A DNA stretch of 64,000 bases from Labedella endophytica (GTDB taxonomy: Bacteria > Actinomycetota > Actinomycetes > Actinomycetales > Microbacteriaceae): contig NZ_RZGZ01000004.1 of the NCBI RefSeq assembly GCF_003990045.1, positions 124,001 through 188,000 of the forward strand, read 5' to 3'. A program made the translations under genes and the position numbers. Positions 25,037 to 58,549 of this stretch are shown piece by piece. The notes beneath the pieces were generated by a model. It was not told the origin of the DNA and ran no database searches. It saw nothing but the letters and a program-made list of their open reading frames with translations. The first letter of the stretch is position 1. The number at the start of each line of letters is the position of its first letter.

Positions 25037-25067
25037 AGTACAGCCCCTGTTCTCGCAACAGGGTCAA
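25037..25067 (-). promoter_or_regulatory. MerR-type promoter P1
   Basis: -35 TTGACC, exactly 19 bp, -10 TGTACT; spacer dyad CCTGT/ACAGG. Drives the efflux gene, 83 nt downstream. Back-to-back with P2. Confidence 0.85.
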
Positions 25068-25074
25068 GGGCGGC

Positions 25075-25105
25075 TTGAGCATGACGCGACGGCATGGTCT
25101 TGGAT
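25075..25105 (+). promoter_or_regulatory. MerR-type promoter P2
   Basis: -35 TTGAGC, 19 bp, -10 TTGGAT; the spacer ends CATGGTC like other members. Points toward a 21-codon ORF. Confidence 0.65.
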
Positions 25106-25169
25106 CGACTCGCGCACGTCGCCTCGACGCCGATGCACACGCTTCCGCTCGCGAACACAGGAGACCCCG

Positions 25170-25235
25170 ATGACAGACATCCGCCTACTGATCGAGGCGG
25201 AGCTGCCCGCCGGCGAGCTCGCGTGCGCCCTGTGA
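25170..25235 (+). CDS. possible 21-aa small protein or gene relic
   Basis: ATG with ACAGGAG 6 nt upstream encodes MTDIRLLIEAELPAGELACA and one more residue before TGA. It lies 65 nt after the P2 -10. It may be a genuine small protein, a leader peptide, or the 5' end of a deleted gene, as nearby loci show internal deletions. No homologue recognised. Confidence 0.35.
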   Translation: MTDIRLLIEAELPAGELACAL

Positions 25236-25278
25236 CCCCGGCCATCGGCGGCTTCCGTGCTGCGTCGGCCTGACCGAC

Positions 25279-25309
25279 TTGACCGTGTTCCTGGAACGCA
25301 GCGTGAGGT
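25279..25309 (+). promoter_or_regulatory. MerR-type promoter P3
   Basis: -35 TTGACC, 19 bp, -10 TGAGGT; the dyad is weaker on the right side. The next good start is the DUF418 gene 164 nt downstream. The intervening DNA holds no convincing gene and may be a relic. Confidence 0.7.
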
Positions 25310-25472
25310 GGAAGACGTCGAACGCACGCGCGGCGGCCCACGACCTCGAAGCGGAGATCAAGAACGCGCGTCACCTTCCTGGTCCTCACCGACTCGATGG
25401 GGTGGCCGCTCCTCATCCCGGGCTGGCAATGACCCTGTCCCCCCTCCCCACATCTCACGAAAGAGGAACGAC

Positions 25473-26738
25473 ATGACCGACGACTCGCGCGTCACAACAG
25501 GCCCCCTGGCCACGCCTCCTGCGTCAGACCGTCAGGCGCCCGAGCGCGCCCCACGACCGACGCCGCTCTCCGAGCGCTCCGCCGCCCCCGACCTCGCGCG
25601 CGGCATGATGCTGCTGCTGATCGCGCTGGCCCATGTGCCCTACTTCCTCTACGTGGCGCCCGTGGGAGCCGTGGGTCTGCACCCCGTCGACGGCGGGCTC
25701 GCGGACCGGATCGCCCAAGCGGTCACGCTCATCGTGGTGGACGCCCGGGTGTACACGATGTTCGGATTCCTCTTCGCCTACGGCATCGGTCAGATGTACG
25801 CGCGACAGGTGCGCTCGGGCGCCGAGCCCGCCGACGCGCGTCGCCTGTTGCGTCGCCGTCACCTGTGGATGATCGTCTTCGGTGCGGTCCACGGGATCCT
25901 GCTCTGGCAGGGCGACATCATCGGCGCCTACGGGGTCATCGGACTCGTCCTGATGCCGCTGTTCTTCCGACGCAGCGACAAGACCCTCGTGGTCTGGATC
26001 GTGGTCCTGCTCGCGGTCGGCGCCGCCGTTGCGGCCCTCAATGCCGTCTCGTACGGCCTCGGCCTCGTGCCGGAGGCGATGGCCTCCGACCTCCAGCGGC
26101 TCAGCATCGCCGAACCGAACTACCTGCTGGCCGCCCTCGCCCGCATCCCCGCCTGGTTCGCCGTGGTCTTCGGCAGCTTCGTCGGTCTCGCGCTCCCGAC
26201 CGCGTTCCTCGCGGGAAACCTCGCGTCGCGGCGCCGCATCCTCGACGAGCCCAGCCGCCACCTCCCGCTCCTGCGCAGGCTCGCGTTCTGGGGCATCCTG
26301 CTCGGCTGGGGCACCGGAGTGGTCCTCGCGCTGCAGCACACCGGCGTCGTGGAGATCGCGCCCGACGGGACCCTCGTGAACGTGCACCTGTTCGCGGGAA
26401 CGTTCGCGGGGATCGGGTACGCGGCGCTCTTCGGGCTCATCGCGCACCGCCTGTCGGTGCGATCCGCGATCACGATCGCGCCCGTGCGATGGATCGGCGC
26501 GCTCGGTCGCCGCTCCATGAGCGGATACCTCTTCCAGTCGCTCGCCTGGGGGCCGGTGCTCGCCGCGTGGGGTCTCGGCCTCGGCGCCCACCTCTCGAGC
26601 TGGTCGGTCGCCCTCTACGCCGTGCTCGTCTGGGCGATCACCGTGGCGCTCGCCGCCGTGATGGAAAGCCGCGGCATCCGCGGACCCGCCGAGACGCTGC
26701 TGCGGCGGCTCATGTACGGGGCGCGGAAGCGGACCTGA
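25473..26738 (+). CDS. DUF418-type multi-pass membrane protein
   Basis: About 421 aa with ten or so helices. Family features: PDLARGMMLLLIALAHVPYF at the N-terminus, DARVYTMFGFLFAYGIGQMY, RRRHLWMIVFGAVHGILLWQ, GDIIGAYGVIGLVLMPLFFR, and C-terminal WIGALGRRSMSGYLFQSLAW. The family belongs to the acyltransferase-3-like superfamily; its substrate is unknown. The first 40 residues are Pro/Thr-rich and cytoplasmic. RBS AAGAGGA. Likely read from P3. Confidence 0.8.
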   Translation: MTDDSRVTTGPLATPPASDRQAPERAPRPTPLSERSAAPDLARGMMLLLIALAHVPYFLYVAPVGAVGLHPVDGGLADRIAQAVTLIVVDARVYTMFGFLFAYGIGQMYARQVRSGAEPADARRLLRRRHLWMIVFGAVHGILLWQGDIIGAYGVIGLVLMPLFFRRSDKTLVVWIVVLLAVGAAVAALNAVSYGLGLVPEAMASDLQRLSIAEPNYLLAALARIPAWFAVVFGSFVGLALPTAFLAGNLASRRRILDEPSRHLPLLRRLAFWGILLGWGTGVVLALQHTGVVEIAPDGTLVNVHLFAGTFAGIGYAALFGLIAHRLSVRSAITIAPVRWIGALGRRSMSGYLFQSLAWGPVLAAWGLGLGAHLSSWSVALYAVLVWAITVALAAVMESRGIRGPAETLLRRLMYGARKRT

Positions 26739-26771
26739 CCGTGGTGGCGTCGGGGGAACGGCGCGGCTGAC

Positions 26772-27409
26772 TCACGGCCGCAGCCACTCGCGGGAGGCGG
26801 CGACGAGAGCGGCGACCCCGCGGTCGAGTGTCGGCTGGATCACGGGAGCGAAGTGGGGCGAGTGGTTCGACGGGATGTCGCGATCGATCGTCCCGGCCGC
26901 AGCGGCCGCAAGGTAGGTCTCCGCGTCCGCGCCGCCGAGGATCCAGTAGACGAGCGGGGCGTTCGCGGCGGTGGCGAGCAGGCCGACATCCTCGCTCCCG
27001 GAGACCGGGCCGGGGTCGATGACTGACGCGTCGCCGAAAACGGACCGGAAGGCGGCCATCGTGCGTTCCGTGGCGGTCGGCTCGTTGACGGTCACGGGGA
27101 ACGATTCGGCGGGATCGATCGTCGGGTCCGGTGCCCCCGCCAGTCCGCTCGGGTCGCCATGAGTTCGCGGACGGCCCCGACCAGGCACGCGACGTGCACG
27201 TCGTGCCCGCACGCGTGCATGATGTCGGATGTGGTGCTCGCGTAGTGGAGACCGGTGTCCTCGACCACAGGCAACGCGTCCATGTCGGCGCGCAGCAGGA
27301 TCGTCGGTCCATCGCCGTTGCGCAGCACCCCGACGACCCCGGTGATCCCGATGTGCTCGATGACGTCGAAGACCGCGGCACGGAGCTCCGCGGCCGCGAT
27401 CGTCACGAT
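26772..27409 (-). pseudogene. M20-family amidohydrolase, decayed
   Basis: Two pieces of one peptidase are in different frames. The 5' piece has [20 protein letters not shown] and [20 protein letters not shown] with metal ligands. The 3' piece has DPGPVSGSEDVGLLATAANA, LVYWILGGADAE and NHSPHFAPVI. The dimerisation domain between them (roughly 150-200 residues) and the true N-terminus are absent, and a frame change lies near 27130. It cannot make an active enzyme. Full-length relatives are near 400 aa. Confidence 0.8.
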
Positions 27410-27441
27410 GCGCTGCGAACGTCGTCCGCAGCGGGAGAGTC

Positions 27442-28035
27442 TCAGCGGTTCAGCCTGCCTGGTCGGGCCCCCGATCGCCGGTGCGGTCTCGACGGGTTCG
27501 GCCGATCGGGCGCACCAGGCGTTCCGATCGATTCGTCGAATTGAGCCATGACGAGGGCTGCGGTGCTCGAGAACCCGGCGGCGACGAGAAGCAGGAGCGA
27601 GGGCGTGAAGTCCTCGGGTGACGGCAGCCACCCTCCTCCCAGCCACGGAAGGACCATCGAGGCGACGACCGCTGTGGTCGTCGCCCATTCGTTGACGATG
27701 AGGATCGGCGACGACCCCGATCCTCCGGTCATCGAGATCCTCCGGCCGGTATCGACGGTCGCCGCGAGCAGGACCGCCCCGAAGAGGATGAACGCTACGG
27801 TGCCCCACACCGGCCCGGCTCCGGCGAGAGCGAGCGGCACGAGGACGGGGACGCCGTAGGCGGCGAACACCCACCGGATCGCCGACCGCCGGTAGCGGTC
27901 GGCGGCGACCGTCGCGGAGAGGGCGCGGTGCTGGTCGGAGTCGATGTAGAAGAACACCCCGACGATGAACGTGCCGAGGAGGGTCGACGCGACGCCGGCC
28001 ACTCCCAGGTGGAACTCCGGAGTGGCGAGCGTCAC
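27442..28035 (-). CDS. hypothetical membrane protein, about 197 aa
   Basis: Start chosen at GTG ([16 protein letters not shown]) with GGGAGTG just upstream; longer frames run through the hydrolase gene. Five hydrophobic helices: [55 protein letters not shown] and [16 protein letters not shown]. No family recognised. A degenerate operator-like stretch (CTGACT, then CACGGTCG) overlaps the preceding stop codon, so it may have its own weak promoter. Confidence 0.6.
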
Positions 28036-28094
28036 GTTCCCACTCCCGAAGCGCGTCTCATCGGACGACGGCTCGACCGTGAGTCGGCCACGAG

Positions 28095-28820
28095 TCAGTC
28101 CGTCGTCGCCCGGACGGACTCGACCGCGCGGAGGATGAGGTCGGCCACAACGGCAGGCTGCGAGACGGGCAGTGCGTGCGAGGCGTCGGGGATCTCGATC
28201 GCCTCGACCGCCGCAGCGCGCTCGGCCATGAACCGGAGCGCCTCGACGGGGATGTTCCGGTCCCCCGAGGAGAACACGAAGAACGAGGGAATCGATCGCC
28301 ACGCCGGCTCGGATGCGCGCCCGTTGAGCGCTTCGGTGTTGAGCGGACGTTGGGTGGCGGCGTCGAGGCGGGCCCGCTCCTCGGCGACGTCGGCTGCGAA
28401 CTGTGCCCGGTAGCGCTCCGGCTGGATGAAGAAGTCGGTCGTTCCATCGCTGAGCTCGACGGCGTGAAGCGTCTCGCCGAGAGTGCTGCCGGGGAACTTC
28501 CCCGACAGGTCGCCGATCGTCTCACCCACCTCGGGCGCGAAGGCGGCGACGAAGACGAGCGCCCCGACGTTCTCGAGACCCGTCGCGGCGTTCGAGATGA
28601 CGGCGCCTCCGTAGGAGTGACCGACGGCGACGACGGGCCCGTCGATGGAGCTGATCAGGCTGCGAACGGAGGATGCGTCGCCGTCGAGGCTGCGCAGCGG
28701 GTTGGCGGCGGCGATCACGGGCACGCCAGCGGCCTGCAGGCGTTCGATCACCTCGTTCCAACTGGACGACTCGGCGAACGCGCCGTGGACCAGGACGACG
28801 GTGGGAAGGGAGGTGGGCAT
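28095..28820 (-). CDS. alpha/beta hydrolase
   Basis: A 241-aa single-domain hydrolase. VVLVHGAFAESSSWNEVI holds the oxyanion motif, AVGHSYGGAVIS the Ser nucleophile elbow, and PDASHALPVSQP the His. The FIQPERYRAQFAADVAEER segment is typical of the salicylate-esterase/MES-like branch. Lies 49 bp downstream of an SDR gene on the same strand and is probably transcribed with it from P4. Confidence 0.85.
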   Translation of the reverse strand: MPTSLPTVVLVHGAFAESSSWNEVIERLQAAGVPVIAAANPLRSLDGDASSVRSLISSIDGPVVAVGHSYGGAVISNAATGLENVGALVFVAAFAPEVGETIGDLSGKFPGSTLGETLHAVELSDGTTDFFIQPERYRAQFAADVAEERARLDAATQRPLNTEALNGRASEPAWRSIPSFFVFSSGDRNIPVEALRFMAERAAAVEAIEIPDASHALPVSQPAVVADLILRAVESVRATTD

Positions 28821-28869
28821 CGTTTCTCCGAACGGTTGGTGGGTGTTCCGAAGCGCGTGGGCGGTGTCT

Positions 28870-29643: not shown

Positions 29644-29681
29644 GGCGAACCCTCTCCTCGGTGATACGTCCGGCACGTCCT

Positions 29682-29712
29682 AGTGAAGACCCTGTGGTGG
29701 GCACAAGGTCAA
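29682..29712 (-). promoter_or_regulatory. MerR-type promoter P4
   Basis: -35 TTGACC, 19 bp, -10 TTCACT; dyad with right arm ACAGGGT. Drives the SDR gene 39 nt downstream. Confidence 0.85.
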
Positions 29713-29766
29713 CAGCACGGTCGACGGCTTCCACGTCCCGCTCCGCCTCACGGAAGCAGTCTCGGT

Positions 29767-30147: not shown

Positions 30148-30275
30148 GTCGTTCAGATCTCCTCGTTCTGGACGAAGTCTGGCCGTTCGTATGGGGCTGC
30201 GACTGTGTCAACAGCTCCGCACCGCACATTCGGCTGGCGAGGGGAACCGAGTGTCGGAAGCACACCCCTTCAGGC

Positions 30276-31021: not shown

Positions 31022-31169
31022 GGTTAGGCCTCCTGGCGACGGCGCGACTCCATCTGCGTCCACTCGAGGACTGACGTAGCCCCTGCTCGTCGCTCCATGA
31101 TCTGTCCACCACTCTGTGTTTCCGTTCCTGCGGTCAGCGCCGCGTGCGTTTCGAACTGGATTTCACCTC

Positions 31170-31200
31170 ATCGAACACCGTGTGGCCACCACATGGTCAA
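31170..31200 (-). promoter_or_regulatory. MerR-type promoter P5
   Basis: -35 TTGACC, 19 bp, -10 TTCGAT. Drives the GNAT/Fe-S pair with a leader of about 140 nt, longer than at other members. Confidence 0.85.
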
Positions 31201-31278
31201 GGGCGGTCGATCGTCTTCCGTGCACCTTGTCCGATTCGGCCGGCGCCTCGGGATCCATCTCGTGGGCTCGCTCGTGTC

Positions 31279-33143: not shown

Positions 33144-33174
33144 AGTGGACACGATGTGGCAGGAACAGTGTCAA
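33144..33174 (-). promoter_or_regulatory. MerR-type promoter P6
   Basis: -35 TTGACA, 19 bp, -10 TCCACT; spacer begins CTGTTCC. Drives the ABC exporter operon. Confidence 0.85.
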
Positions 33175-33213: not shown

Positions 33214-33969
33214 TCAGGAGGCGCTCGTGGCCTCACGGAGCGACGGGATCAGCTCGTCGCTGCGGGCCGTCACGCGCTCGACGACGTCGCGTTGGGCCGG
33301 GTTGTAAACCTCGAGGAACGTGTCGGCGATGATCCGGCGCGTCTCTGTCGGGCTTCTCCTGGGTCGCCGCCCGGAGGCGAGGGACGCGAGGTCATCGATG
33401 GATCGCCAGCGACTGGACTCGGCGGCGAACCGCTCGGCGACGCGCTCGCGGCTCCGCTCACTCGCGTCGGCACGCAGCGCGGCGAACTCCTCGGCGGCAA
33501 TGATCGACCCGCGCGAGATCGTGTCTCGCAGGCTCGCCACCGCCTCATCATCGTCGGCGAGCCGCGTGACGACGTGCAGCACCGCACGATCCGCCGGAGA
33601 CAACCGCGCGGCGACGGACTCGAATCCCCGCGGCGTATCGATGGGCGCCTGGTCGTGCAGGATGGCCGCGATGTCCTCCCGCGACCGGCGGAGCTTCGCG
33701 AGGTCCGCCGCGAGGACGGCGTCGACCGCGCGGAGCTCCTCCTGCGCCTCGGGGCCGGACGACCCCACCTGCTCGATGCTCGCGAGCGGCACGCCGAGTT
33801 CCGTCAGCCGTCGGATCCGCACGAGGCACACGAGGTGCCGGGCCGTGTAGCGCTTGTAGCCGTTCGTGTCGCGCTCGGGCAGGTCGAGCAGGCCGACCGA
33901 ATGATAGTACCGGACGGTGTTGACCGTCACGTTCGCCAGATCGGCGATCTCGCTCGTGCTCCAGGGCAT
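33214..33969 (-). CDS. MerR-family regulator (paralogue 1)
   Basis: A 251-aa protein. N-terminal MerR HTH: MPWSTSEIADLANVTVNTVR, YYHSVGLLDLPERDTNGYKR, then the dimerisation helix from SREDIAAILHDQ. Residues 110-250 are a helical effector domain shared with the 50132 and 58606 products (GFESVAARLSPADRAVLHVV, and near the end TFLEVYNPAQRDVVERV). Two decayed versions of the 19-bp-spacer promoter lie just upstream. Probably senses a small molecule and activates the surrounding promoters. Confidence 0.9.
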   Translation of the reverse strand: MPWSTSEIADLANVTVNTVRYYHSVGLLDLPERDTNGYKRYTARHLVCLVRIRRLTELGVPLASIEQVGSSGPEAQEELRAVDAVLAADLAKLRRSREDIAAILHDQAPIDTPRGFESVAARLSPADRAVLHVVTRLADDDEAVASLRDTISRGSIIAAEEFAALRADASERSRERVAERFAAESSRWRSIDDLASLASGRRPRRSPTETRRIIADTFLEVYNPAQRDVVERVTARSDELIPSLREATSAS

Positions 33970-33975: not shown

Positions 33976-34063
33976 CCTCCGGGTGTGGCCTGGATACCAG
34001 GGTCGGACAGGGGCGTGCGGCTCGCGTCGGTATGTTCCACCTATCTCCCCAGCACCGGGTCGG
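33976..34063 (-). promoter_or_regulatory. degenerate MerR-type sites upstream of paralogue 1
   Basis: CCGACC at 34001-34006 precedes CTGGTATCCAGG; a second CCGACC at 34058-34063 is followed by CGGTGCTGGGGA, identical over 12 bp to the P15 spacer. Both lack a good -10 at 19 bp. Possible autoregulatory operators. Confidence 0.4.
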
Positions 34064-34092
34064 CGGGCACCGAAGTGGCGGTGGTCGGCGGG

Positions 34093-36930
34093 ATGCGTGA
34101 CAATCGCCTCGGAGCGGCATTCCTTCCGCTCCTCCCATGGGCAGGAGTGTCACTGACAGGGTTCCTTGGCCGACGCGATGAACGCGAGGTGGTCGCGCGC
34201 CTGTTGTCCGACGCACGTCGCGGACGCAGCGGGGTCCTCGTCGTGCGCGGCGAGGCGGGCATCGGGAAGACCGCCCTCCTCGAGCAGGCCCGTGACGAGG
34301 CGATCGCGGGAGGGTTCCAGGCGATCGAGTGTGCGGGGATCGAGGCGGAGACCCAGTTCGCCTTCGCCGGGCTCCAACGGCTGTGCGCCGATCGCCTCGG
34401 CGGCCTGCCGGAGCTGCCGGACGTGCAGCAGGTCGCACTCGGCGTCGCCTTCGGACTGCGCGCCGGTGCACCGCCCGACCGGTTCCTCGTGGGACTCGCC
34501 GTCCTCGGTCTGCTGGCGGAGGCCGCCGCGGGACAGCCGCTCATCACGCTCGTCGACGACGCGCAGTGGCTGGATCAGGCGTCCGCCGACGTCCTGGCCT
34601 TCGTCGCCCGACGGCTGGAGGCCGAGGGGGTGCTGATCGTCTTCGCGATCCGGAGCGAGGACGGCTCCGACCTCGCGCCGGACGATCCCTTCGTCGGGCT
34701 CGTTCCCGAGTTGCGGCTGACGGGCCTCGGCGAGACGGACGCGCGGACCTTGCTCGGCGCCTCCGTCCAGGCCCCGATGGACGGAGACGTCCGCGACCGC
34801 ATCCTCGCCGAGGCCCGCGGCAATCCGCTGGCCCTCCTCGAACTGCCGTCGAGCGCGGCGCTCGCCGGCGGATTCGGGCTCCCCAACACGCAACTCGTCC
34901 CGCGGCGCGTCGAGGAGGGCTTCCGCCGCCGGTCGGGCGACCTGCCGCGGGAGACGCAGTCGATGCTTCTGCTCGCGGCGGCGGATCCGACGGGGGACGT
35001 CGCGCTGCTGCAGCGCGCCGCGGCGTTGTTCGGGGTGGCTCCCGAGGCGGTGGAACCGGCAGAGGCGTCGGGGCTGCTCGACGTCGGTTCGCGCGTACGT
35101 TTCCGGCATCCGCTCGTCCGATCGGCCGTGTACCGTGCCGCCACCCCGGGCGACCGGCGCCGAGCGCATGGGGTGCTCGCTGACGCGACCGATCCGATCG
35201 CGCACGCCGATCGACGCGCCTGGCACCGCGCGCAGGCCGTCCTGGGCACGGACGAAGCGGTCGCATCCGAACTCGAGCGTTCCGCCGGGCGGACGCGAGC
35301 GCGCGGCGGACTCGCGGCCGCGGCGGCGTTCCTCGAGCGATCGATGGAACTCACCCCGGACGCCGCGCGAAGGGCGGAGCGTGCCCTCGCCGCCGCCTAT
35401 GCGAAGCACGACGCGGGAGCGTCCGAGGTGGCCCTGGAACTGCTGTCCGAGGCGTCGGTCGGACCGCTCGACACTCTGCAGCGCGCGCGGCGCGACCTGC
35501 TCCGCGCTCGGATCGGACTGCACCTGACCAATGACCCGGATGCCCCGAGGATGCTGCTGGAGGTCGCCGAGACTTTCACCGTGCTCGGGGCTCGGCAAGC
35601 CCGCGAGACCTACTTGAGCGCCCTCGATGCCGCGCTGGTCGTGGGCACCGGGGTGATGGAGGTCGCTCGGGCCGCTCGGGCCGCGCCCGCGCTGGTCGGT
35701 CCACCGAGCGCCGCCGATCTGCTCCTCGACGGACTGGTCACGGCCTTCACGACCGGCTTCGGCGAGGCCGTTCCGATCCTCCGCCGCGCACTCGCCGCGC
35801 TCCGGGAGGAAAGGCCACCGTCCCCCCTCGACGCCGGTGCGAGCGTTGAGGCCCCGACGGCACCGGCGTCGAACGAGGGTCGCCGCTGGCTCTGGCTCCC
35901 CAGTGGGGTGGCTGCAGGCGTATTCGACGAGGAGTCGATGTTCGACGTCGCCTCCCGCAACGTACGGATCGCACGTGACACCGGTTCGCTCTCGATCCTG
36001 CCCGCCGCCCTCGTGGGCCTCTCCGCCGTGACGGTCCTCCGCGGCGACCTCGCCCGAGCGGCGGAGTTGGCGGACGCGAGCGCCGCCATCACCCGCGCGA
36101 CGGGCGCGGTGCCGCTCCGATACGGTCGGATCTTCGTCGCCGCGTGGCAGGGGGATGGGGAGGCGATCGACGAACTTCGCCTGGGTGAGGCCGGGGACGG
36201 CGCCGGTACGGTCGTCGGTGCCGAACTCTCCCTCGCGCACTACGCGAATGCGGTGCTGCGCAACGGGCTCGGCGAGTATGGGGCTGCGGCGGACGCGGCA
36301 GCGCGGGCATGTCTGTCCGACGAGCTGTCCAATACGAGTCTCGCGCTCCCCGAATTCATCGAGGGCGCGACGCGCTCGGATCAGTCGGCGCTCGCGATGT
36401 CGGCGCTCGCAGCGCTCCGAGAGCGCGCCGAGGCGAGCGGGACCGAGTGGGGCCTCGGTCTCGCCGCCGGGTCCGGCGCCCTCCTCGCTCACGGAGCGGA
36501 GGCCGACGCCCTGTACCGGGAAGCGATCGACCGGCTGAGCCGTGGCCGCATGGTCCTCCATCTGGCCCGCGCCCACCTCGTGTACGGCGAATGGCTGCGC
36601 CGGGAGGGGCGTCGCCTGGACGCTCGAAAACAGCTCCGCATCGCCCACGACACGTTGGCGGACAGCGGCGCGGTCGCCTTCGCAGCGCGCGCCGCGCGCG
36701 AGCTCCGTGCCACCGGAGAGCAGCCGCGAGCCCGATCGGCCCCGTCGTCCGGCGCTCTCACGGAGCACGAGCTCCAGATCGCCCGCCTCGTGGCGGCTGG
36801 AGCGACGTCGAGGGAGGTCGGCGCCCAGCTGTTCCTCAGCACTCGGACCATCGAGGCCCACTTGAGGAACATCTTCCCGAAGCTCGGGATCACGTCGAGG
36901 CGCCAACTCCGCGACCACCTGCCGCAGTAG
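34093..36930 (+). CDS. large ATP-binding LuxR-family regulator (LAL type)
   Basis: About 945 aa. GFLGRRDE precedes Walker A GEAGIGKTALLE (near residue 55); Walker B-like LITLVDDAQWLD follows. The middle is TPR-like helical repeats. C-terminal HTH: LTEHELQIARLVAAGATSRE, VGAQLFLSTRTIEAHLRNIF. Start at MRDNRLGAA; a GTG at 34147 just before the conserved region is the alternative. Divergent from a MerR gene. Such regulators are STAND ATPases that respond to small molecules. Confidence 0.85.
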   Translation: MRDNRLGAAFLPLLPWAGVSLTGFLGRRDEREVVARLLSDARRGRSGVLVVRGEAGIGKTALLEQARDEAIAGGFQAIECAGIEAETQFAFAGLQRLCADRLGGLPELPDVQQVALGVAFGLRAGAPPDRFLVGLAVLGLLAEAAAGQPLITLVDDAQWLDQASADVLAFVARRLEAEGVLIVFAIRSEDGSDLAPDDPFVGLVPELRLTGLGETDARTLLGASVQAPMDGDVRDRILAEARGNPLALLELPSSAALAGGFGLPNTQLVPRRVEEGFRRRSGDLPRETQSMLLLAAADPTGDVALLQRAAALFGVAPEAVEPAEASGLLDVGSRVRFRHPLVRSAVYRAATPGDRRRAHGVLADATDPIAHADRRAWHRAQAVLGTDEAVASELERSAGRTRARGGLAAAAAFLERSMELTPDAARRAERALAAAYAKHDAGASEVALELLSEASVGPLDTLQRARRDLLRARIGLHLTNDPDAPRMLLEVAETFTVLGARQARETYLSALDAALVVGTGVMEVARAARAAPALVGPPSAADLLLDGLVTAFTTGFGEAVPILRRALAALREERPPSPLDAGASVEAPTAPASNEGRRWLWLPSGVAAGVFDEESMFDVASRNVRIARDTGSLSILPAALVGLSAVTVLRGDLARAAELADASAAITRATGAVPLRYGRIFVAAWQGDGEAIDELRLGEAGDGAGTVVGAELSLAHYANAVLRNGLGEYGAAADAAARACLSDELSNTSLALPEFIEGATRSDQSALAMSALAALRERAEASGTEWGLGLAAGSGALLAHGAEADALYREAIDRLSRGRMVLHLARAHLVYGEWLRREGRRLDARKQLRIAHDTLADSGAVAFAARAARELRATGEQPRARSAPSSGALTEHELQIARLVAAGATSREVGAQLFLSTRTIEAHLRNIFPKLGITSRRQLRDHLPQ

Positions 36931-37690: not shown

Positions 37691-37769
37691 CGTGATCCAC
37701 CTCTCCGTGCAGTTCTGGTCTCGCCATGCATCGGCCGCTGACGGGGCCGACGAGCGAAGGGTGTGTAAT

Positions 37770-37788
37770 TGACATGTAAATCATGTCA
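37770..37788. promoter_or_regulatory. MarR-type operator
   Basis: TGACATG taaat CATGTCA, a perfect 7-bp inverted repeat with a 5-bp spacer, between the reductase and MarR genes. A related TTCACGTGTCAA lies next to it. Confidence 0.7.
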
Positions 37789-38334: not shown

Positions 38335-38365
38335 TTGACCTCGTGGTGGGAACAGGGTCTTGAGT
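38335..38365 (+). promoter_or_regulatory. MerR-type promoter P7
   Basis: -35 TTGACC, 19 bp, -10 TTGAGT; right arm ACAGGGTC. Drives the short MerR gene. Confidence 0.85.
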
Positions 38366-38423: not shown

Positions 38424-38801
38424 ATGCCGTGGAGTACGCGAGAGCTCGCCGAGCTCGCCGGCACGACGCTCAACGCCGTGCGTCACTACCACCGGGTCGG
38501 GCTCCTCGACGAGCCGGATCGGACGAGCAACGGCTACAAGCAGTACCAGGTCCGACACCTCGTGCGCCTCATCCGGATCAGACGCCTTCGCGACCTGGGT
38601 GTACCTCTCGACCGGATCGAGGAGGTGACCGCCCCCGGTAGTGCGGCGACGGAGGCGCTGAGCGCGATCGATGCCGACATCGCGGAGACGATGGAGCGGC
38701 TGGGGCGTGCCCGCTCGGAGATCGGCGCGATCGTCCGCGGGTCGAAGCCTCCGGACCCTGCCTCCCTGTTCGCGGACGCCGATCGCGATGCCGAGTGTTG
38801 A
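38424..38801 (+). CDS. MerR-family regulator, short (paralogue 2)
   Basis: Only 125 aa. HTH and dimerisation helix are intact (MPWSTRELAELAGTTLNAVR, HYHRVGLLDEPDRTSNGYKQ, ATEALSAIDADIAETMERLG), but the protein ends 20 residues after the helix, where its paralogues carry about 130 more residues of effector domain. Either a deletion product or a constitutive or antagonist regulator. Its TGA stop overlaps the -35 of P8. GGAGG 9 nt upstream of the ATG. Confidence 0.85.
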   Translation: MPWSTRELAELAGTTLNAVRHYHRVGLLDEPDRTSNGYKQYQVRHLVRLIRIRRLRDLGVPLDRIEEVTAPGSAATEALSAIDADIAETMERLGRARSEIGAIVRGSKPPDPASLFADADRDAEC

Positions 38802-38828
38802 CTCGGTCGCTACGACATGGTGTCCACT
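38798..38828 (+). promoter_or_regulatory. MerR-type promoter P8
   Basis: -35 TTGACT overlapping the stop codon of the short MerR gene, 19 bp, -10 TCCACT. Drives the LLM oxidoreductase. Confidence 0.8.
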
Positions 38829-44187: not shown

Positions 44188-44218
44188 ATCTCACACCCTG
44201 TGGTGAGGACAGGGTCAA
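44188..44218 (-). promoter_or_regulatory. MerR-type promoter P10
   Basis: -35 TTGACC, 19 bp, -10 TGAGAT; perfect dyad ACCCTGT n7 ACAGGGT, the cleanest in the set. Drives ltrA. Confidence 0.9.
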
Positions 44219-45013: not shown

Positions 45014-45044
45014 ACCGCACACCGTGTCGTCGCGACAGGGTCAA
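45014..45044 (-). promoter_or_regulatory. MerR-type promoter P11
   Basis: -35 TTGACC, 19 bp, -10 TGCGGT. Drives the SDR gene 42 nt downstream. Confidence 0.85.
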
Positions 45045-45584: not shown

Positions 45585-46019
45585 TCAGGCGGTGCTCGCC
45601 AGCACGCGCTTCGTCAACGATCGCACCGACGCGGCGATTTCGGGCGTCAGGACGTGCAGCAGGTCGCGAGACGGCGTGCCGTCGGGCCCAAGGAGCAGTC
45701 CTGATCGGCCGTGGAACGAGGGGTCGACGGCGAGCACCGTGATCCCGGACGGTCCGAGCTCGCGTGCCAGGTCCTGGTTGTACGCCAGATGCGCGAGTTT
45801 GGCACGGCCCATCACTGCCATACCGGCGTACTCGCCGGCCTCATCGACGTCGTCGTACCTCGGCGCGCCGTCGATCGTCGCGGTCGTGATGGCGGAGGAG
45901 GTCACGTCGAAGCCATGTTCGTGCAGGCGGCGGGCCACGTGAAATCCGAGTCCTCCGGTCCCGCCCGTGACGACGGCGCGACGCGTGGTCGTGCCGTTCT
46001 CGGTTCGCTTCGATGTCAT
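45585..46019 (-). pseudogene. SDR with in-frame internal deletion
   Basis: 144 codons, open throughout. The N-terminus (AVVTGGTGGLGFHVARRLHE) runs to HGFDVT and jumps straight to SSAITTATIDGAPRYDDVDE and MGRAKLAHLAYNQDLARELG, which belong about 95 residues further on in full-length retinol-dehydrogenase-type SDRs. The NNAG region and most of the cofactor domain are missing. Still has promoter P12, so it may be transcribed with the AhpD-like gene. Confidence 0.75.
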
Positions 46020-46050: not shown

Positions 46051-46081
46051 ATCCCACACCCGGTTCCCGCCACAGGGTCAA
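46051..46081 (-). promoter_or_regulatory. MerR-type promoter P12
   Basis: -35 TTGACC, 19 bp, -10 TGGGAT. Leftward; back-to-back with P13. Confidence 0.85.
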
Positions 46082-46154: not shown

Positions 46155-46185
46155 TTGACCCTGTCCCCGGCACACGGTGTGGGAT
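46155..46185 (+). promoter_or_regulatory. MerR-type promoter P13
   Basis: -35 TTGACC, 19 bp, -10 TGGGAT; spacer starts CTGTCCCC and ends ACACGGTG. Rightward, 39 nt before the hydrolase ATG. Confidence 0.9.
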
Positions 46186-48327: not shown

Positions 48328-48358
48328 TTGACTATGTGCTAGCCACAGGGTGTGAGGT
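48328..48358 (+). promoter_or_regulatory. MerR-type promoter P14
   Basis: -35 TTGACT, 19 bp, -10 TGAGGT. The ATG at 48365 falls 7 nt after the -10, at the expected start of transcription. Confidence 0.85.
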
Positions 48359-50131: not shown

Positions 50132-50887
50132 ATGCCGTGGAGTACGCGGGAGGTCGCCGAACTGGCGGGGACGACCTTGAACACGGTTCGTCACTACCAC
50201 CAGATCGGACTTCTCGAAGAGCCCGATCGCCACGAGAACGGCTACAAGCAATACGACGAGCGGCACGTCGAAACTCTTCTGCGCATTCGGCGCTTAGCCG
50301 CCCTCGGGGTTCCTCTGACGGAGGTCAAGGAGGTTCTCTCGGGCACGAAATCCGCAGAGGCTTCGCTGCGCGCGCTCGACGTCGAACTCCACGTGGAGAC
50401 GGAACGCCTGGAAAAAGCGCGGGAGGACATTGCAGCGATCCACCGGCACGGCGCACCGGCACACTCTCCTGTCGGCTTCGAGTCCCTGGCCTCCCGACTG
50501 TCGGACGCGGACCGGTCGGTGATCCACATCTACACGCAGGTCTACGACGAGGACGCGTTGTCCGACGTCAAGCAGATGGCCGAGGCGCACGACGAAGCGC
50601 TGGATGCGGAGATCGACGCTCTGCCCGCGGATGCTGATGTGGCGACGAAGGAGCGTCTCATCGAGCAGCTCGCTCGGACGCAGGCGCAGAATCTCGTCGA
50701 TTTCCCCTGGCTGGAGGATTCTGCCCCCCGGCTCGCGAAGAGCGGCAGCGTCGATTCGCAGACGTGGGTGGACATGCTGGTGGAGCTGTACAACCCGGCT
50801 CAGCTGGAAGTGCTCGGCCGGGCAAGTCTGCTCGCCATCGAGTACGCACGCGACCTGCGGAGGAATGCCACAGCAAAGGACGCATGA
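50132..50887 (+). CDS. MerR-family regulator (paralogue 3)
   Basis: A 251-aa protein. MPWSTREVAELAGTTLNTVR and HYHQIGLLEEPDRHENGYKQ form the HTH, nearly the same as in the 38424 and 58606 products. The effector half contains GFESLASRLSDADRSVIHIY and WVDMLVELYNPAQLEVLGRA. GAGAGGAA precedes the ATG. The upstream stretch has only a faint trace of the 19-bp-spacer motif (CCATATGGTG). Likely one of the activators of the island promoters. Confidence 0.9.
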   Translation: MPWSTREVAELAGTTLNTVRHYHQIGLLEEPDRHENGYKQYDERHVETLLRIRRLAALGVPLTEVKEVLSGTKSAEASLRALDVELHVETERLEKAREDIAAIHRHGAPAHSPVGFESLASRLSDADRSVIHIYTQVYDEDALSDVKQMAEAHDEALDAEIDALPADADVATKERLIEQLARTQAQNLVDFPWLEDSAPRLAKSGSVDSQTWVDMLVELYNPAQLEVLGRASLLAIEYARDLRRNATAKDA

Positions 50888-50902
50888 GGCAGTATGCCGC
50901 TC

Positions 50903-50990
50903 TCAGTTGCTCGCGTCGGAGGAGGCGCTCAGCGCGATCGACGACGAACTCGAGAGAAGTATCGAACAGATCGAACTCTTCGTCTGCAGA
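50903..50990 (+). pseudogene. fragment of a MerR-family gene
   Basis: LLASEEALSAIDDELERSIE QIEL in one frame aligns with the dimerisation helix of the MerR paralogues (TEALSAIDADIAETMERL in 38424). There is no HTH before it and no effector domain after it. The 16 bp just before (TGAGGCAGTATGCCGC, 50885) are identical to part of the 50-bp palindrome at 61557. Confidence 0.55.
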
Positions 50991-51061
50991 TCAGAGCACC
51001 CCTTCGCGGCGCGGCCGGTGGAGAGAACTCAGAACAGTGACCGTCCGAGAGCGGAGAAGGG

Positions 51062-51304
51062 TCACCGTTCGCCGCTCGCGAATCCGGCGGCGCGCAGCTC
51101 CGCAAGATAGGCGCTGTCTGCCGGAGCGAGGTAGTGCGCCTCTGAGCGCTCGTCGACGCCGACGACGCGGACCGGAACTCCTCCTGCCCCGATCACGGCG
51201 TCCATTGCGACCTGGGTGAGGGCCGAACCTGGATTGCGGAGCAGCCACTCCTGTGCGCTGCGTCCGCATCGTGTGAACCAGTGACCGTCATCGCTCGTTT
51301 TCAT
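51062..51304 (-). CDS. small hypothetical protein, 80 aa, leaderless
   Basis: MKTSDDGHWFTRCGRSAQEW, then NPGSALTQVAMDAVIGAGGV and SEAHYLAPADSAYLAELRAA. Soluble, no known motif. The ATG is 7 nt after the P15 -10, where transcription should start, and there is no ribosome site. This promoter match is the best evidence that the gene is real. Confidence 0.65.
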   Translation of the reverse strand: MKTSDDGHWFTRCGRSAQEWLLRNPGSALTQVAMDAVIGAGGVPVRVVGVDERSEAHYLAPADSAYLAELRAAGFASGER

Positions 51305-51310: not shown

Positions 51311-51341
51311 ATCCCACACCCTGTCCCCAGCACCGGGTCAA
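51311..51341 (-). promoter_or_regulatory. MerR-type promoter P15
   Basis: -35 TTGACC, 19 bp, -10 TGGGAT. Leftward, opposite P16. Confidence 0.85.
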
Positions 51342-51403: not shown

Positions 51404-51434
51404 TTGACCCGGTGGTAGGAACATGGTGTGCACT
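51404..51434 (+). promoter_or_regulatory. MerR-type promoter P16
   Basis: -35 TTGACC, 19 bp, -10 TGCACT; spacer CGGTGGTAGGA shared with P17. Drives the 51491 gene. Confidence 0.85.
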
Positions 51435-51490
51435 GAGCCATGCGCGCGGGTAACGACGCGTCCGACGCCCGATCGATCCGAGGAGACATC

Positions 51491-52252: not shown

Positions 52253-52283
52253 TTGACTCGGTGGTAGGAACACGCTCTTGACT
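52253..52283 (+). promoter_or_regulatory. MerR-type promoter P17
   Basis: -35 TTGACT, 19 bp, -10 TTGACT. 82 nt before the CPBP gene. Confidence 0.8.
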
Positions 52284-53249: not shown

Positions 53250-53298
53250 GAGTGCTCGGTCGAGTCGTCAGGCTTGCTTGTCGCCTCAGGGGCGCTCG

Positions 53299-54006: not shown

Positions 54007-54034
54007 CGGGCGTCGCCGCATCTCAGCGAGCGTC

Positions 54035-54065
54035 TTGACCATGTTCCTGGCACATGGTGTTCGCT
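54035..54065 (+). promoter_or_regulatory. MerR-type promoter P18
   Basis: -35 TTGACC, 19 bp, -10 TTCGCT. The ATG at 54073 follows 8 nt after the -10. Confidence 0.85.
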
Positions 54066-54072
54066 GAAGAAC

Positions 54073-54795: not shown

Positions 54796-54945
54796 CCGCC
54801 GGCGTCGGTGCCGTCGTTCTCGGCCGCCGTGTTCCAGGCGTAGAACGTGCCGTCGACCTCGACGATCGACCAATTCATGCACTGCCATTCCGAGCGTGGA
54901 TGGCCCGATGTCGTCCGGTGGCATGGTCTTGCGATCGAGCGGATC
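54796..54945. other. intergenic, possible relic
   Basis: 150 bp between convergent genes. Contains CCGGTGGCATGGTCTTGCGA (about 54914), similar to the right half of the regulon promoters but without a -35. No gene seen. Confidence 0.3.
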
Positions 54946-55152
54946 TCAGCCCAACCGTCGTACCCGGAGGACGACGGCGGTCACGACGACGAGCACGAGG
55001 CCGACCGCGCCGAGCGGGATGCCGACGAGGGACAGTGCGCCCGCGCCGATGTTGGCGTCGAGCGCCGTGGGGTCGCGGATGAGGACGGCCACGGCGAGCA
55101 TCGTGAAGCCGATCGCGAGGAGGACCGTGCCGAGGGTTCGGAGGGCGCGCAT
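54946..55152 (-). CDS. small two-helix membrane protein
   Basis: 68 aa: MRALRTLGTVLLAIGFTMLA continues into the first helix, and GALSLVGIPLGAVGLVLVVV forms the second; the end is VLRVRRLG. The ATG overlaps the stop of the DUF4188 gene (ATGA), so it is translationally coupled and probably functions with it. No family recognised. Confidence 0.65.
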   Translation of the reverse strand: MRALRTLGTVLLAIGFTMLAVAVLIRDPTALDANIGAGALSLVGIPLGAVGLVLVVVTAVVLRVRRLG

Positions 55153-55682
55153 CAGCGGACCGCCTCCGCGTCTGGGCTCGATGACGCGGCGGATGCGGGA
55201 GCGCGCGTCTCGTCTGCGCCGATGCGCTCACCGCCGCCGCCCTCCCCGTGTCCCGCCGAGACGATCGACGTCGCACGAGCCAGACCCATCACGGGCGTCG
55301 TGACGTACAGGCTCTCGGCGCGGTCGACGAGGAAGGTCTCGTGCCAGACGCCGACGGCGCCGCCGGACCTCCGCGTCGTGCGGGAGAAGATGTTCCAGGC
55401 CGCGCGGTGCGACGCCGATGCGTCGGCCGCGTAGGCGTACAGCTCGTCGAGCGACGACCAGTACTGAGTCTGGGACGGCCCGTTCCGATCGACGTGTGTG
55501 GCGGCTCCGAGAAGCCCGGAGTCGGGGTCCGCTTGCAGCTCACGGAGCATGCGTGTCATCGCTCGATAGGGCGGGAGCCAGAGGTCGGGACGCCTCCAGC
55601 GGTTCACGCGCAGGCCCATGCGGAAGACGACGAGTTCGCCGTCGTACTCATGCGTCATCCGGCCCCGGATCACGTTGTGCAT
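55152..55682 (-). CDS. DUF4188-family protein (monooxygenase-like)
   Basis: A 176-aa protein. RMTHEYDGELVVFRMGLRVN, LPPYRAMTRMLRELQADPDS, GPSQTQYWSSLDELYAYAAD, HRAAWNIFSRTTRRSGGAVG then VWHETFLVDRAESLYV match DUF4188, a ferredoxin-like fold related to haem-dependent dehydratases and monooxygenases. The last 35 residues are acidic and disordered. From P19. Confidence 0.85.
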   Translation of the reverse strand: MHNVIRGRMTHEYDGELVVFRMGLRVNRWRRPDLWLPPYRAMTRMLRELQADPDSGLLGAATHVDRNGPSQTQYWSSLDELYAYAADASASHRAAWNIFSRTTRRSGGAVGVWHETFLVDRAESLYVTTPVMGLARATSIVSAGHGEGGGGERIGADETRAPASAASSSPDAEAVR

Positions 55683-55718
55683 CGCGTGCCTTCCTCTCGG
55701 TGGGTGACGTCCTGCTCC

Positions 55719-55749
55719 ATGGAACCCCGTGTCCTGGGAACAGGGTCAA
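55719..55749 (-). promoter_or_regulatory. MerR-type promoter P19
   Basis: -35 TTGACC, 19 bp, -10 TTCCAT; spacer CTGTTCCCAGGACA. Back-to-back with P20, 17 bp away. Confidence 0.85.
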
Positions 55750-55766
55750 GTGGCAGGTAGGGCCTC

Positions 55767-55797
55767 TTGACCGTGTGGCGGGAACACGGAGTGTGAT
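55767..55797 (+). promoter_or_regulatory. MerR-type promoter P20
   Basis: -35 TTGACC, 19 bp, -10 TGTGAT. 47 nt before the serine hydrolase ATG. Confidence 0.85.
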
Positions 55798-55844
55798 CGA
55801 CCAGGCGCTACCGGAGCGCATACAGCCCCGTCCGAGGAGGACCC

Positions 55845-56972
55845 ATGACGATCCGCAGTGCTCTCATCGCCACGACCGGGGCAGCGGCGCTGCTCGCCGG
55901 GCTCGCACTCGCCCCGCCGGCCCCAGAGGCCGCGAGCGGGCACGACCCGGTCCGAGCCGCCCTTGCCGAGACGATGCGGCTCGACGATTGGCCGGCCGCA
56001 TTCGCCGCCACCACCGACGAGCGCGGCAAGACCCGCACCTACGCCGCGGGGGTTGTCGAGCTCGGCACCTCCACGAAGGTCAGCCGCGACAGCAGCCTCC
56101 GGATCGGGAGCAACACGAAGACCTTCACCGCCGCCGTCGTGCTCCAGCTCGTCGCCGAGGGAGAGATCGATCTCGATGCCACGGTCGAGTCGTATCTGCC
56201 GGGTGTGCTCGACCACCCCGAGGTGACGGGCGCAGACGTCACCGTCCGTCAGCTGCTCCAGCACACCGCTGGGCTGCCGGATCTGGACGACGACGTCTTC
56301 GCGAACATCGTCGAGTGGCAGCACCGCTACATCTCGCCGCGCTCCGCCCTCGACATCGCACTGACGGAGCCGGTGACCGGCGCCCCGGGGGAGGCGTTCT
56401 CCTACAGCAACACCCACTACATCCTCGCGGGCCTCATCGTCGAGGCGGTCGCCGGGCGGCCCTTCAGCGAGGTGGTCCACGAGCGCATCCTCGCCCCGCT
56501 CGGGCTCGACGACACCTACATGCCCGACCAGGGCGAACAGGTGATCCGCGGAAAGCACCCGCACAGCTACATCCCGGTGGACGGTGAGTCCCTCGACTAC
56601 ACGGACTTCGACCCGTCGTGGGGCTTCACCGCCGGTGCGATGGTCTCGACCACCAGCGACCTCACGGCCTTCTACGCGGCGCTCGCGCAGGGCGACGTCG
56701 TTCCCGCAGACCTCCTCGCAGAGATGCAGACGACGATCCCGACCACCGGCCTGTGGGAGGGTGCTCGGTACGGTCTCGGGCTCATCTCCTTCGACCTCAG
56801 CTGCGGCGTGACCGCGTGGGGTCACGGCGGCGACGTGCCGGGCACCCAATCGCGGGTAGCGGCCACGGAGGACGGGCGGTCCGCCGCGATCGTCGTCACA
56901 CGGAATGCGACGACCGCCGAGGGCGAAGCGCGCCTGCGGGCCTTCCTCGACACGGCGATCTGCTCGCAGTAG
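55845..56972 (+). CDS. secreted serine hydrolase, class C beta-lactamase/DD-peptidase fold
   Basis: A 375-aa protein with a signal peptide (ALIATTGAAALLAGLALAPP, cleavage near AASG). Penicillin-binding motifs: IGSNTKTFTAAV (SxxK), AFSYSNTHYILAGL (YxN), and AWGHGGDVPGTQS (HxG). The hydrolase could be a DD-carboxypeptidase, esterase or beta-lactamase; substrate not readable. GAGGA precedes the ATG. Confidence 0.9.
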   Translation: MTIRSALIATTGAAALLAGLALAPPAPEAASGHDPVRAALAETMRLDDWPAAFAATTDERGKTRTYAAGVVELGTSTKVSRDSSLRIGSNTKTFTAAVVLQLVAEGEIDLDATVESYLPGVLDHPEVTGADVTVRQLLQHTAGLPDLDDDVFANIVEWQHRYISPRSALDIALTEPVTGAPGEAFSYSNTHYILAGLIVEAVAGRPFSEVVHERILAPLGLDDTYMPDQGEQVIRGKHPHSYIPVDGESLDYTDFDPSWGFTAGAMVSTTSDLTAFYAALAQGDVVPADLLAEMQTTIPTTGLWEGARYGLGLISFDLSCGVTAWGHGGDVPGTQSRVAATEDGRSAAIVVTRNATTAEGEARLRAFLDTAICSQ

Positions 56973-57071
56973 TCGTCGCCCCGTCCAAACACCGAGAAGA
57001 GAAGAACCCCCGACTGAATCCTCTATGAGACGACCGCGCAGATCGTGCCGACCGTCGTCGGGTGTCTCGAG

Positions 57072-58106
57072 TCACCCGAACAGGCTGTGCTGCTCGGCGA
57101 ATCCCCAGGCGATCTCGGAGGCATCCGGCCCTGCCTGATCGGTGTATTCGCCTTCGCCCTCGGGGCCGGGCCACGCGTGTGCCATCGCCGGGACGAGGTA
57201 GTGCTCGATGAGGGTGCCGCCGTCGGCGGTGGTGTAGACGGTGCGCTCGAACGCGTGGCGGCCATCGTGTGCGGGCGTCGACGTCGTCTCGCTCGTGAGC
57301 TCGAGACTGCTGTTGAGGAGCCCATCGTCGATGAGGTCGGCGACCGCGCTCCACTGCTCGACGAGACGGCCGCCGACGAGCTCGGGGACCACCTCGTCCT
57401 GGCCGCCCTGGATGACGAGCAGTGGCACGAGACGCTGCCGATCGGCCATCTGAGCCCATGCCTGCCGGGCGGTCTCCACCGGCGGAGTGTCGTCGGGGTT
57501 CTCCGGGTCCACCCGGTTGAGTCCGTACTCGCCCCCCGCGACCGACGTCACCGTTGCAAAGACGTCAGGGTATGTGGCACCCAGGATGACGGCGGTGCCG
57601 GCCCCCGACGAAGCGCCCGACACGTGCACCCGCGACGCGTCGGCGCCGTAGGTCTCGACGACCTCGCCTGCGATACCGGCGAGGAGCGCCGGCTCGCCGC
57701 TACCGCGCTGCTGGTTCTCGGGATCGCCTGAGTTCCAGCAGTTGATGGCGCTCGCGAAGGGACGCTGGCTGGGATAGACGACGATGAACCCTTCGCGGTC
57801 GGCGAGAGCGTCGAACTGTGTCGTGCGCTCCATCGAGTTCCAGCCGAAGCCTGTCATGGCGCAGCCGTGCAGGGCCATCATCACGGGCAGCGGGGTGGAG
57901 CCGTCGTATTGCGGAGGGACGTGCACCTGGTAGGGAAGCCAGTCGCCGTCCGCGTCGTGGTAGACGTGGGTGCTGTCGTTGTCGCCGCTCGCCATCGGAA
58001 GGCCGAGCTGGAACAGTGCGGTGACGCCGGCAGCCGTCAGCAGGAGGAGCGCGAGGGTTCCTGCGGTGAGGAGAGACCAACGCCGCCGGCGATCCAGGGT
58101 CTTCAC
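57072..58106 (-). CDS. LpqC/PHB-depolymerase-type esterase
   Basis: About 344 aa from a GTG (VKTLDRRRRWSLLTAGTLAL) with an N-terminal signal anchor. VMMALHGCAMTGFGWNSMER (oxyanion), FIVVYPSQRPFASAINCWN, VHVSGASSGAGTAVIL (Ser nucleophile), VIQGGQDEVVPELVGGRLVE, and a C-terminal His in PAMAHAWPGP. The GTG overlaps the stop of the 34-codon relic at 58103, so translation is coupled to it. Confidence 0.85.
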   Translation of the reverse strand: MKTLDRRRRWSLLTAGTLALLLLTAAGVTALFQLGLPMASGDNDSTHVYHDADGDWLPYQVHVPPQYDGSTPLPVMMALHGCAMTGFGWNSMERTTQFDALADREGFIVVYPSQRPFASAINCWNSGDPENQQRGSGEPALLAGIAGEVVETYGADASRVHVSGASSGAGTAVILGATYPDVFATVTSVAGGEYGLNRVDPENPDDTPPVETARQAWAQMADRQRLVPLLVIQGGQDEVVPELVGGRLVEQWSAVADLIDDGLLNSSLELTSETTSTPAHDGRHAFERTVYTTADGGTLIEHYLVPAMAHAWPGPEGEGEYTDQAGPDASEIAWGFAEQHSLFG

Positions 58107-58207
58107 CGGCCGAGGAGCGCGAGTGCGCCCGACGCGGCGATGAGGAGCTGCGTGAGCACTGGCACCTGGTCGACTGCGCTCTGCAGCCCGTCGCAGGGGT
58201 CGTCCAT
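58103..58207 (-). pseudogene. 34-codon deletion relic of a small multidrug efflux gene
   Basis: Encodes MDDPCDGLQSAVDQVP, matching the start of the 24265 protein (VDNPYEWLQSAIDQVP), joined in frame to LLIAASGALALLGR, matching its end (TLIAVAATGALAALGW). About 195 internal codons are missing. GAGGAG precedes the ATG, and the TGA overlaps the esterase GTG. Retained perhaps as a translated leader that feeds ribosomes to the esterase. Confidence 0.75.
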
Positions 58208-58265
58208 GGTTGTCCGTCTCCTCAGATTCCGATGTGCGGAGCAGTCGCTCCACTCGACGAAACCG

Positions 58266-58296
58266 AGTCAAGGCCGTGTTCTTGGAACATGGTCAA
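58266..58296 (-). promoter_or_regulatory. MerR-type promoter P21
   Basis: -35 TTGACC, 19 bp, -10 TTGACT; spacer ATGTTCCAAGAACA has an inner TTCCAAGAA near-dyad. Drives the relic and esterase. Confidence 0.85.
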
Positions 58297-58518
58297 GTGC
58301 ACGTCGGAGCAGCACCGATCGCTCGGTAGGTGCCGCCCCCGCAGCCGACCGGACCGCCGGAGAATGAAGGAGCAGGCGGTCGGCTCTAGCGATGGGGACC
58401 CCGGGCTGCCTGCCGTGCCCTGTTCTCGATCGCTTCCGCGCCGCCCGTGTGAGCTCGCTCATCGTCGTGGCGAAGAACGGCGAGTGGCGACGACGCGTTG
58501 CCCCGAGAGTGCCCGTTC

Positions 58519-58549
58519 TTGACCCTGTTCCGGGAACACGGTCTTGAAT
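58519..58549 (+). promoter_or_regulatory. MerR-type promoter P22
   Basis: -35 TTGACC, 19 bp, -10 TTGAAT; spacer CTGTTCCGGGAACACGG contains a perfect TGTTCCnGGAACA dyad. Drives MerR paralogue 4. Confidence 0.9.

Follow-up and report, generated by a model that had tools for sequence, protein, structure and literature searches.

A 33-kb island of MerR-type promoter sites in Labedella endophytica: a candidate clustered activator regulon

Introduction

Well-known activators of the MerR family mostly serve one or two operons each. In the heavy-metal regulons of CueR, CadR and MerR, as portrayed in the parts of PMC1526738 drawn on here, a palindrome lies within a promoter spacer of 19 or 20 bp. Here we describe a 64,000-nucleotide stretch of the Labedella endophytica genome (assembly GCF_003990045.1, contig NZ_RZGZ01000004.1, positions 124,001–188,000; hereafter the window), in which a single 33-kb island holds 20 strong MerR-type sites and one weak site, interleaved with MerR genes (Table 1). 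Read from its sequence, this island is probably a regulon of MerR-family activators, possibly responsive to drugs or xenobiotics. Dimers of its MerR proteins, all of which start with MPWST, would bind a dyad within the spacer, over-long at 19 bp, and hold the promoters off, and a ligand in their helical C-terminal domain would lead to a bent and untwisted spacer, allowing RNA polymerase to use both boxes.

Twenty sites confined to one island

The sites, 31 bp in length, follow the pattern TTGAC-N20-TNNNNT, with a spacer of 19 bp and a dyad near CCTGT-N7-ACAGG. Twenty matches to this pattern were found in the window (100 dinucleotide shuffles: mean 1.42, maximum 6), and in a spacer scan of the window 19 bp accounted for 20 matches and every other length from 14 to 25 bp for 0–4. 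The −35 box reads TTGACC in 16 sites, TTGACT in three and TTGACA in one. Dyad positions G9, T10, A18 and C19 are invariant in all 20, while the exact form CCTGT-N7-ACAGG is found at two places only. Searched for by itself with two mismatches allowed, the dyad gave 29 matches vs a shuffle mean of 19.4, hardly more than expected by chance; the specificity thus comes from the combination of the dyad with the −35 and −10 boxes. When these elements were combined as TTGACNNNGTN7ACN6TNNNNT, 20 exact matches were obtained in the 3,665,080-base genome, all of them within window positions 25037–58549; allowing one mismatch added 19 matches, none in the window, and a reversed control gave eight. The chance under random placement of the 19 other sites falling in the same stretch is about 1e-39, but since related sites are not independent, such computed probabilities are too small. 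A matrix built from the 20 sites found 20 places at 30–47 bits (weakest site 30.0), followed by 25075–25105 on the forward strand at 20.3 bits and then by scores of 9.0 or less; a second matrix scan without the −10 part added only antisense overlaps of known sites.

An earlier note on this DNA, made from the sequence alone, had counted 22 sites, a figure that comes down to the 20 strong sites and the weak one at 25075, no 22nd being found. Its invariant 19-bp spacer and its 16 exact TTGACC boxes were recovered, as were divergent pairs at 46051/46155, 51311/51404 and 55719/55767; of the dyad that it described, the GT/AC core holds throughout. The note had also considered that the motif might be equally common in the rest of the genome, which is contradicted by the lack of any exact match outside the cluster.

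All 20 sites point towards a gene: 19 face a listed target gene or operon, and the one at 51311 faces an open reading frame (ORF) of 80 codons. The target classes in the island comprise membrane, exporter, hydrolase and redox genes, and also acyltransferases. A MarR gene within the island has a palindrome of its own over its start (window 37769–37788, TTGACATG...CATGTCA), unrelated to the MerR dyad.

Table 1. Sites, regulators and a recurrent target gene in the island (window coordinates).
Feature	Position	Strand	Target or remark
Site 1	25037..25067	-	upstream of small membrane protein
Weak degenerate site	25075..25105	+	divergent from site 1; L. populi counterpart at L062:4595
Site 2	25279..25309	+	upstream of DUF418 membrane protein
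Site 3	29682..29712	-	operon SDR / alpha-beta hydrolase / membrane protein
Site 4	31170..31200	-	operon GNAT / Fer4-CDGSH
Site 5	33144..33174	-	ABC-2 exporter operon
Site 6	38335..38365	+	short MerR2
Site 7	38798..38828	+	LLM-class oxidoreductase; MerR2 stop codon lies in the TTGAC of the site
Site 8	44188..44218	-	LtrA membrane protein
Site 9	45014..45044	-	SDR
Site 10	46051..46081	-	SDR remnant and CMD (AhpD-like) gene; divergent from site 11
Site 11	46155..46185	+	alpha-beta hydrolase and ankyrin protein
Site 12	48328..48358	+	CPBP protease-like protein; ATG 6 bases past site (leaderless)
Site 13	51311..51341	-	80-codon ORF; ATG 6 bases past site (leaderless)
Site 14	51404..51434	+	FRWW-type membrane protein without Pfam family
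Site 15	52253..52283	+	two CPBP proteins
Site 16	54035..54065	+	DUF1345; ATG 7 bases past site (leaderless)
Site 17	55719..55749	-	af470-like monooxygenase; divergent from site 18
Site 18	55767..55797	+	serine hydrolase of beta-lactamase fold
Site 19	58266..58296	-	PHB-depolymerase-type esterase, start codon uncertain
Site 20	58519..58549	+	MerR4 and GPP34 protein
MerR1	33214..33969	-	Pfam MerR_1 7.4e-14; no strong site of its own
MerR2	38424..38801	+	125 amino acids, no effector domain; behind site 6
MerR3	50132..50887	+	no strong site of its own
MerR4	58606..59391	+	closest to L. populi MerR (82%); behind site 20
AAA-LuxR regulator	34036..36930	+	divergent from MerR1, no site of its own; start assigned in this analysis
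Small membrane protein	24265..24954	-	commonest target of the motif in fetched loci; weak Sm_multidrug_ex likeness below Pfam cut-off

Linkage of regulator and motif across genomes

Relatives of MerR4 were collected from 41 loci in Microbacterium, Agreia, Cryobacterium, Arthrobacter, Brevibacterium and other genera (G and L numbers denote genomes and loci, respectively). A matrix match above 15 bits was found in 40 of these loci (68 matches, and one in shuffled DNA); 35 of the 41 have one or two sites, often as a divergent pair ahead of the MerR gene, and in the only locus without such a match, L083, the MerR frame is cut to 129 codons. Among 299 genomes of the family, the regulator was found in 39 (E 1e-30 or better), the strict motif in 35 and both in 26 (Fisher 2e-20); among 376 genomes of the order the corresponding numbers are 56 (E 1e-40), 52 and 40 (Fisher 3e-30). 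All 13 regulator-bearing genomes of the family that lack the motif score below 273 bits, and 22 of the 26 with the motif score above 297. A genome of the same genus without the regulator (G033) has two matches to a looser pattern and none to the strict one.

The strongest control comes from homologues of two target genes. The small membrane protein has a site in 7/9 MerR-positive and 0/10 MerR-negative genomes (the window's own gene included; 24 of 30 loci used, the other six being second pieces, with five of the 24 lacking a usable match), and the LLM oxidoreductase in 2/6 and 0/24, respectively (best 30 loci, own gene included; LLM matches occur in 81 of 109 genomes), which pooled gives 9/15 MerR-positive (own included) and 0/34 MerR-negative. 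The connection drawn in the earlier note between MerR genes and motif thereby gains comparative support on three counts: co-occurrence in genomes, the motif beside 40/41 MerR loci and target-homologue sites only in MerR-positive genomes. One genome without a MerR match at E 1e-40 has four strict sites (G343:C1:338342, 338386, 808302 and 3517919), the first two of which form a good-looking divergent pair.

Alternatively, the sites could be operators for a repressor or could serve some other factor, such as the AAA-LuxR protein or an alternative sigma factor, the MerR genes being mere neighbours. Homologues of AAA-LuxR are encoded in 6 of the 38 other fetched loci, in G287 likewise divergently from a MerR gene, and a −10 box that never has A at −11 (see below) would also suit such a factor. 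However, a dyad inside a 19-bp spacer is the arrangement known from MerR promoters, the motif adjoins a MerR gene in single-site loci, and the remaining 32 of the 38 loci showed no AAA-LuxR gene (8–20 kb each, so that it may lie outside); we regard this alternative as quite improbable.

Leaderless starts and an unusual −10 box

Among 138 distinct sites, collected with an extended matrix (69 training sites including MerR loci of other genomes, some of which are recounted among the 138), an open ATG follows the −10 box at 6 bases in 11 cases and at 7 bases in nine, compared with a mean of 1.75 per offset for offsets of 9–60. In a further 20 loci from 15 genomes, the ATG stands at 6 bases in 8/48 sites, and three sites in the window (48328, 51311 and 54035) are of this kind. 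Kinship among the sites makes the probabilities computed for this peak too small as well, yet it is evident in both collections. As a peak at 6–7 bases is the spacing of leaderless genes, the sites are, judged by this spacing, promoters turned towards their genes, and for the leaderless genes the transcription start can be read from the sequence; a start just after the −10 boxes, as proposed earlier, is supported by this peak. The same evidence speaks against the repeats being recombination or attachment sites of a gene-cassette element. Different genes with one copy each, and a gene order that varies between islands, would fit such an element, but the sites face genes and lie ahead of start codons, with the leaderless peak just described, and no integrase-type family is among the Pfam matches of the scanned cluster proteins, which makes this reading highly improbable.

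At −11, which is base two of the −10 hexamer and position 27 of the site, A never occurs: 0/20 in the window, 0/164 distinct strict sites of all fetched DNA and, for the further loci taken separately, 0/45. These strict-pattern counts, like those of the leaderless ATGs in the further loci, were made without a matrix. T is found there more often than any other base (72/164), and the search pattern imposes no condition on this position. In current structural accounts, as excerpted from PMC9909328, the −11 A sits in a sigma pocket and is central to DNA opening, and parts of PMC3898074 report TANNNT at 73% of primary starts in Mycobacterium tuberculosis, with no −35 motif. Two other explanations were rejected. 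Evidence against a −10 box displaced by one or two bases comes from the leaderless ATGs, which lie at 6–7 bases (20 cases) and at 8 in only one, and from the scarcity of T at position 33 (15/138 sites). A general avoidance of −11 A in actinobacterial MerR promoters, with TANNNT sufficing, is countered by a second class of 19-bp promoters with a CTCAAG dyad (from 119 relatives), in which −11 is A in 18/25 (Fisher 1e-18 vs 0/138); the avoidance is thus not a general rule, and may still hold for the class studied here.

Two mechanistic accounts may be envisaged. The distorted complex of activator, DNA and polymerase could open the DNA without the −11 A, or its absence could keep the promoters silent when the activator is not at work. 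We prefer the latter, promoter silence, as the reason for the missing A. Joining this to the genomic picture, we tentatively suggest that −11 A may be excluded by selection across the order, and that the promoter unit may define an open-ended, plug-in regulon, which any gene would enter on acquiring the unit and whose members have here been gathered into an island. The exclusion bears directly on which features of a −10 box are required for activation by MerR-type distortion.

The MerR proteins and their possible ligand

The four MerR genes counted in the earlier note are all present, and its additional fragment corresponds to a short MerR-like stretch after 50887, a coiled-coil remnant following MerR3 (window 50888–51110) recognized by eye in translation. 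The proteins have the N-terminal winged helix-turn-helix of the MerR family in a TipA-like DNA-binding domain, pairwise sharing 41–55 of their first 70 residues, and in a profile search of PDB sequences this domain was most like that of TipAL. A helix of the kind used for dimerization is predicted at residues 75–104, after the DNA-binding domain (monomer model, model confidence 64–77 over most of it). Among 21 effector domains, none matched Pfam TipAS at E up to 1, and a sequence comparison of the effector domain with the PDB gave no relative (best E 0.16, unrelated). The modelled effector domain is all-helical, and the top rows of its structural search were AlbA, as a weak match; in whole-protein fold searches the result lists were filled by matches to the DNA-binding domain. 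The effector domain thus has no Pfam family and appears to resemble weakly the drug-binding domain of AlbA. Against the NCBIfam models of metal regulators, MerR4 reached at best 50.1 bits (cut-off for MerR 150.85), and MerR1 and MerR3, the other two proteins scanned, were also below the cut-offs.

In the phylogenetic tree, MerR4 groups with the L. populi protein and other genera (100/99), MerR1 with G287 and G233 (99/97) and MerR2 with other genera (90/93), while MerR3 has no settled position; a recent in-place duplication of the four genes is ruled out by this tree. The alignments (A2, 24 of the 41 loci and three window proteins; A3, 19 loci and two) leave out mostly near-duplicates, as well as L083 and L100 with their broken reading frames (L083:335-721, Arthrobacter sp. 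MSA 4-2; L100:10001-10243, Arthrobacter sp. ATA002). Short forms comparable to MerR2 are found elsewhere, in G021 (119 amino acids, with its own site) and L083 (129 codons), with partial matches in G195, G412 and G488.

The spread of the four proteins over the tree, their differing effector domains and the lack of a strong own site for MerR1 and MerR3 are what would be expected of four separate small circuits, each MerR having its own ligand and a few sites, and the motif being common through descent of the DNA-binding domain. Against this, no classes are apparent by eye among the 20 sites, the DNA-binding domains have the similarity given above, and the same motif is present in genomes with a single MerR gene, whichever of the two main branches of the tree that gene belongs to, from which a shared recognition of the motif by the MerR subfamily seems likely. 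We therefore consider separate circuits a serious but unlikely alternative to shared control by all four proteins. Under shared control, MerR2 and MerR4, lying behind sites of their own, would provide feedback. Given the exporters, membrane proteins, hydrolases, reductases and acyltransferases among the targets and the weak likeness of the effector domain to AlbA, the signal might be a hydrophobic toxic small molecule or an antibiotic, a guess we offer with some reserve; should it be an antibiotic, the island would be a catalogue of genes switched on together against it.

Relatives and history of the island

The genome of L. endophytica (3.67 Mb; window G+C 69.5%) belongs to the same genus as L. 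populi; the cluster (window 25000–59500) has a G+C of 68.3%, compared with 71.3% for bases 1–24000. With 17 strict-pattern sites the L. endophytica genome leads those compared, followed by G080 (nine) and G306 and G567 (eight each). Partial clusters that enclose MerR genes are found in G078, G080, G233, G021, G306, G647, G567 and G524, and G370 and G509 are among the genomes whose listed sites lie far apart or on different contigs. The regulon is thus the largest member seen of a widespread type, so that the clustering of sites put forward earlier as new stands, by site number, as the largest case, and not as something unique to this genome. An open-licence literature search recognized no account of this regulon or motif, which is no proof of its absence from print.

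The 107 targets called in the fetched loci include the small membrane protein (20), MerR itself (13), an ABC exporter and an unnamed membrane protein (five each), and CPBP, FRWW-type and esterase genes (four each). Of 48 targets from 20 loci in 15 further genomes, 13 of these from other families, 33 have a homologue among 39 window proteins, with identities of, e.g., 70–77% for SDR and 67–76% for CMD (the 39 include an alcohol dehydrogenase just outside the island; AraC and esterase results were not used). L. populi has a smaller version at the same place, with the left flank (20059–25183) kept and the right flank kept in parts up to 61860; the sites of this version are spread over 5.4 kb and stand before a short set of genes, namely those for the small membrane protein, an inverted ABC exporter, the esterase and MerR4, with CPBP in between. 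The MerR proteins of the same-genus G165 and of L. populi (L062) are identical. A clean empty site was looked for in the same genus without success: close matches are confined to G165 for the gene on the left flank (87%) and to G108 for that on the right (78%).

An SDR remnant in the window (45586–46019; 144 codons, middle missing) has retained a good site, site 10. Considering the dissimilar MerR proteins, the recurring targets and this decayed gene, the simplest history is one in which genes carrying the promoter were gained and lost, so that the island would have changed in size around a small core of MerR and membrane protein. With about 20 operons each having its own copy of the promoter, a gene could enter the regulon, drop out of it or be relocated together with its promoter. 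One recognition site and type of promoter before some 20 operons, with target families reused in several families of the order, makes the growth of a regulon traceable gene by gene.

Comparison with known systems

The operator of BmrR also begins with ACCCT. BmrR and Mta of Bacillus have in common with the proteins described here the MerR fold and a long-spacer promoter, activated there by spacer distortion, according to excerpts of PMC9909328, and probably likewise here; they differ in having a GyrI-like ligand domain and bmr and blt as the targets named in those excerpts. The heavy-metal regulons share the palindrome inside the promoter spacer (19 or 20 bp there), whereas MerR1, MerR3 and MerR4 fall below the NCBIfam metal cut-offs and no metal-resistance family is among the Pfam matches of the cluster. 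The CTCAAG-dyad promoters of related actinobacteria, which we take to be a SoxR/NmlR-like class, have the same −35 box, 19-bp spacer and dyad within it, but the dyad is another one and −11 is A in 18/25 there vs 0/164 here. TipAL of Streptomyces and AlbA resemble the present system in the DNA-binding domain, which is most like that of TipAL, in having the regulator among its own targets and possibly in the effector domain, modelled here as all-helical with a weak match to AlbA; here, in contrast, there is no Pfam TipAS match, 20 sites lie in one island and the promoters lack −11 A. The earlier observation holds with 20 sites, and its interpretation is supported by the comparison of genomes. 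Long-spacer activation by MerR proteins is already known; what is new here is the unusual size of the clustered regulon, together with an effector domain that falls in no Pfam family and a −10 box from which −11 A is missing.

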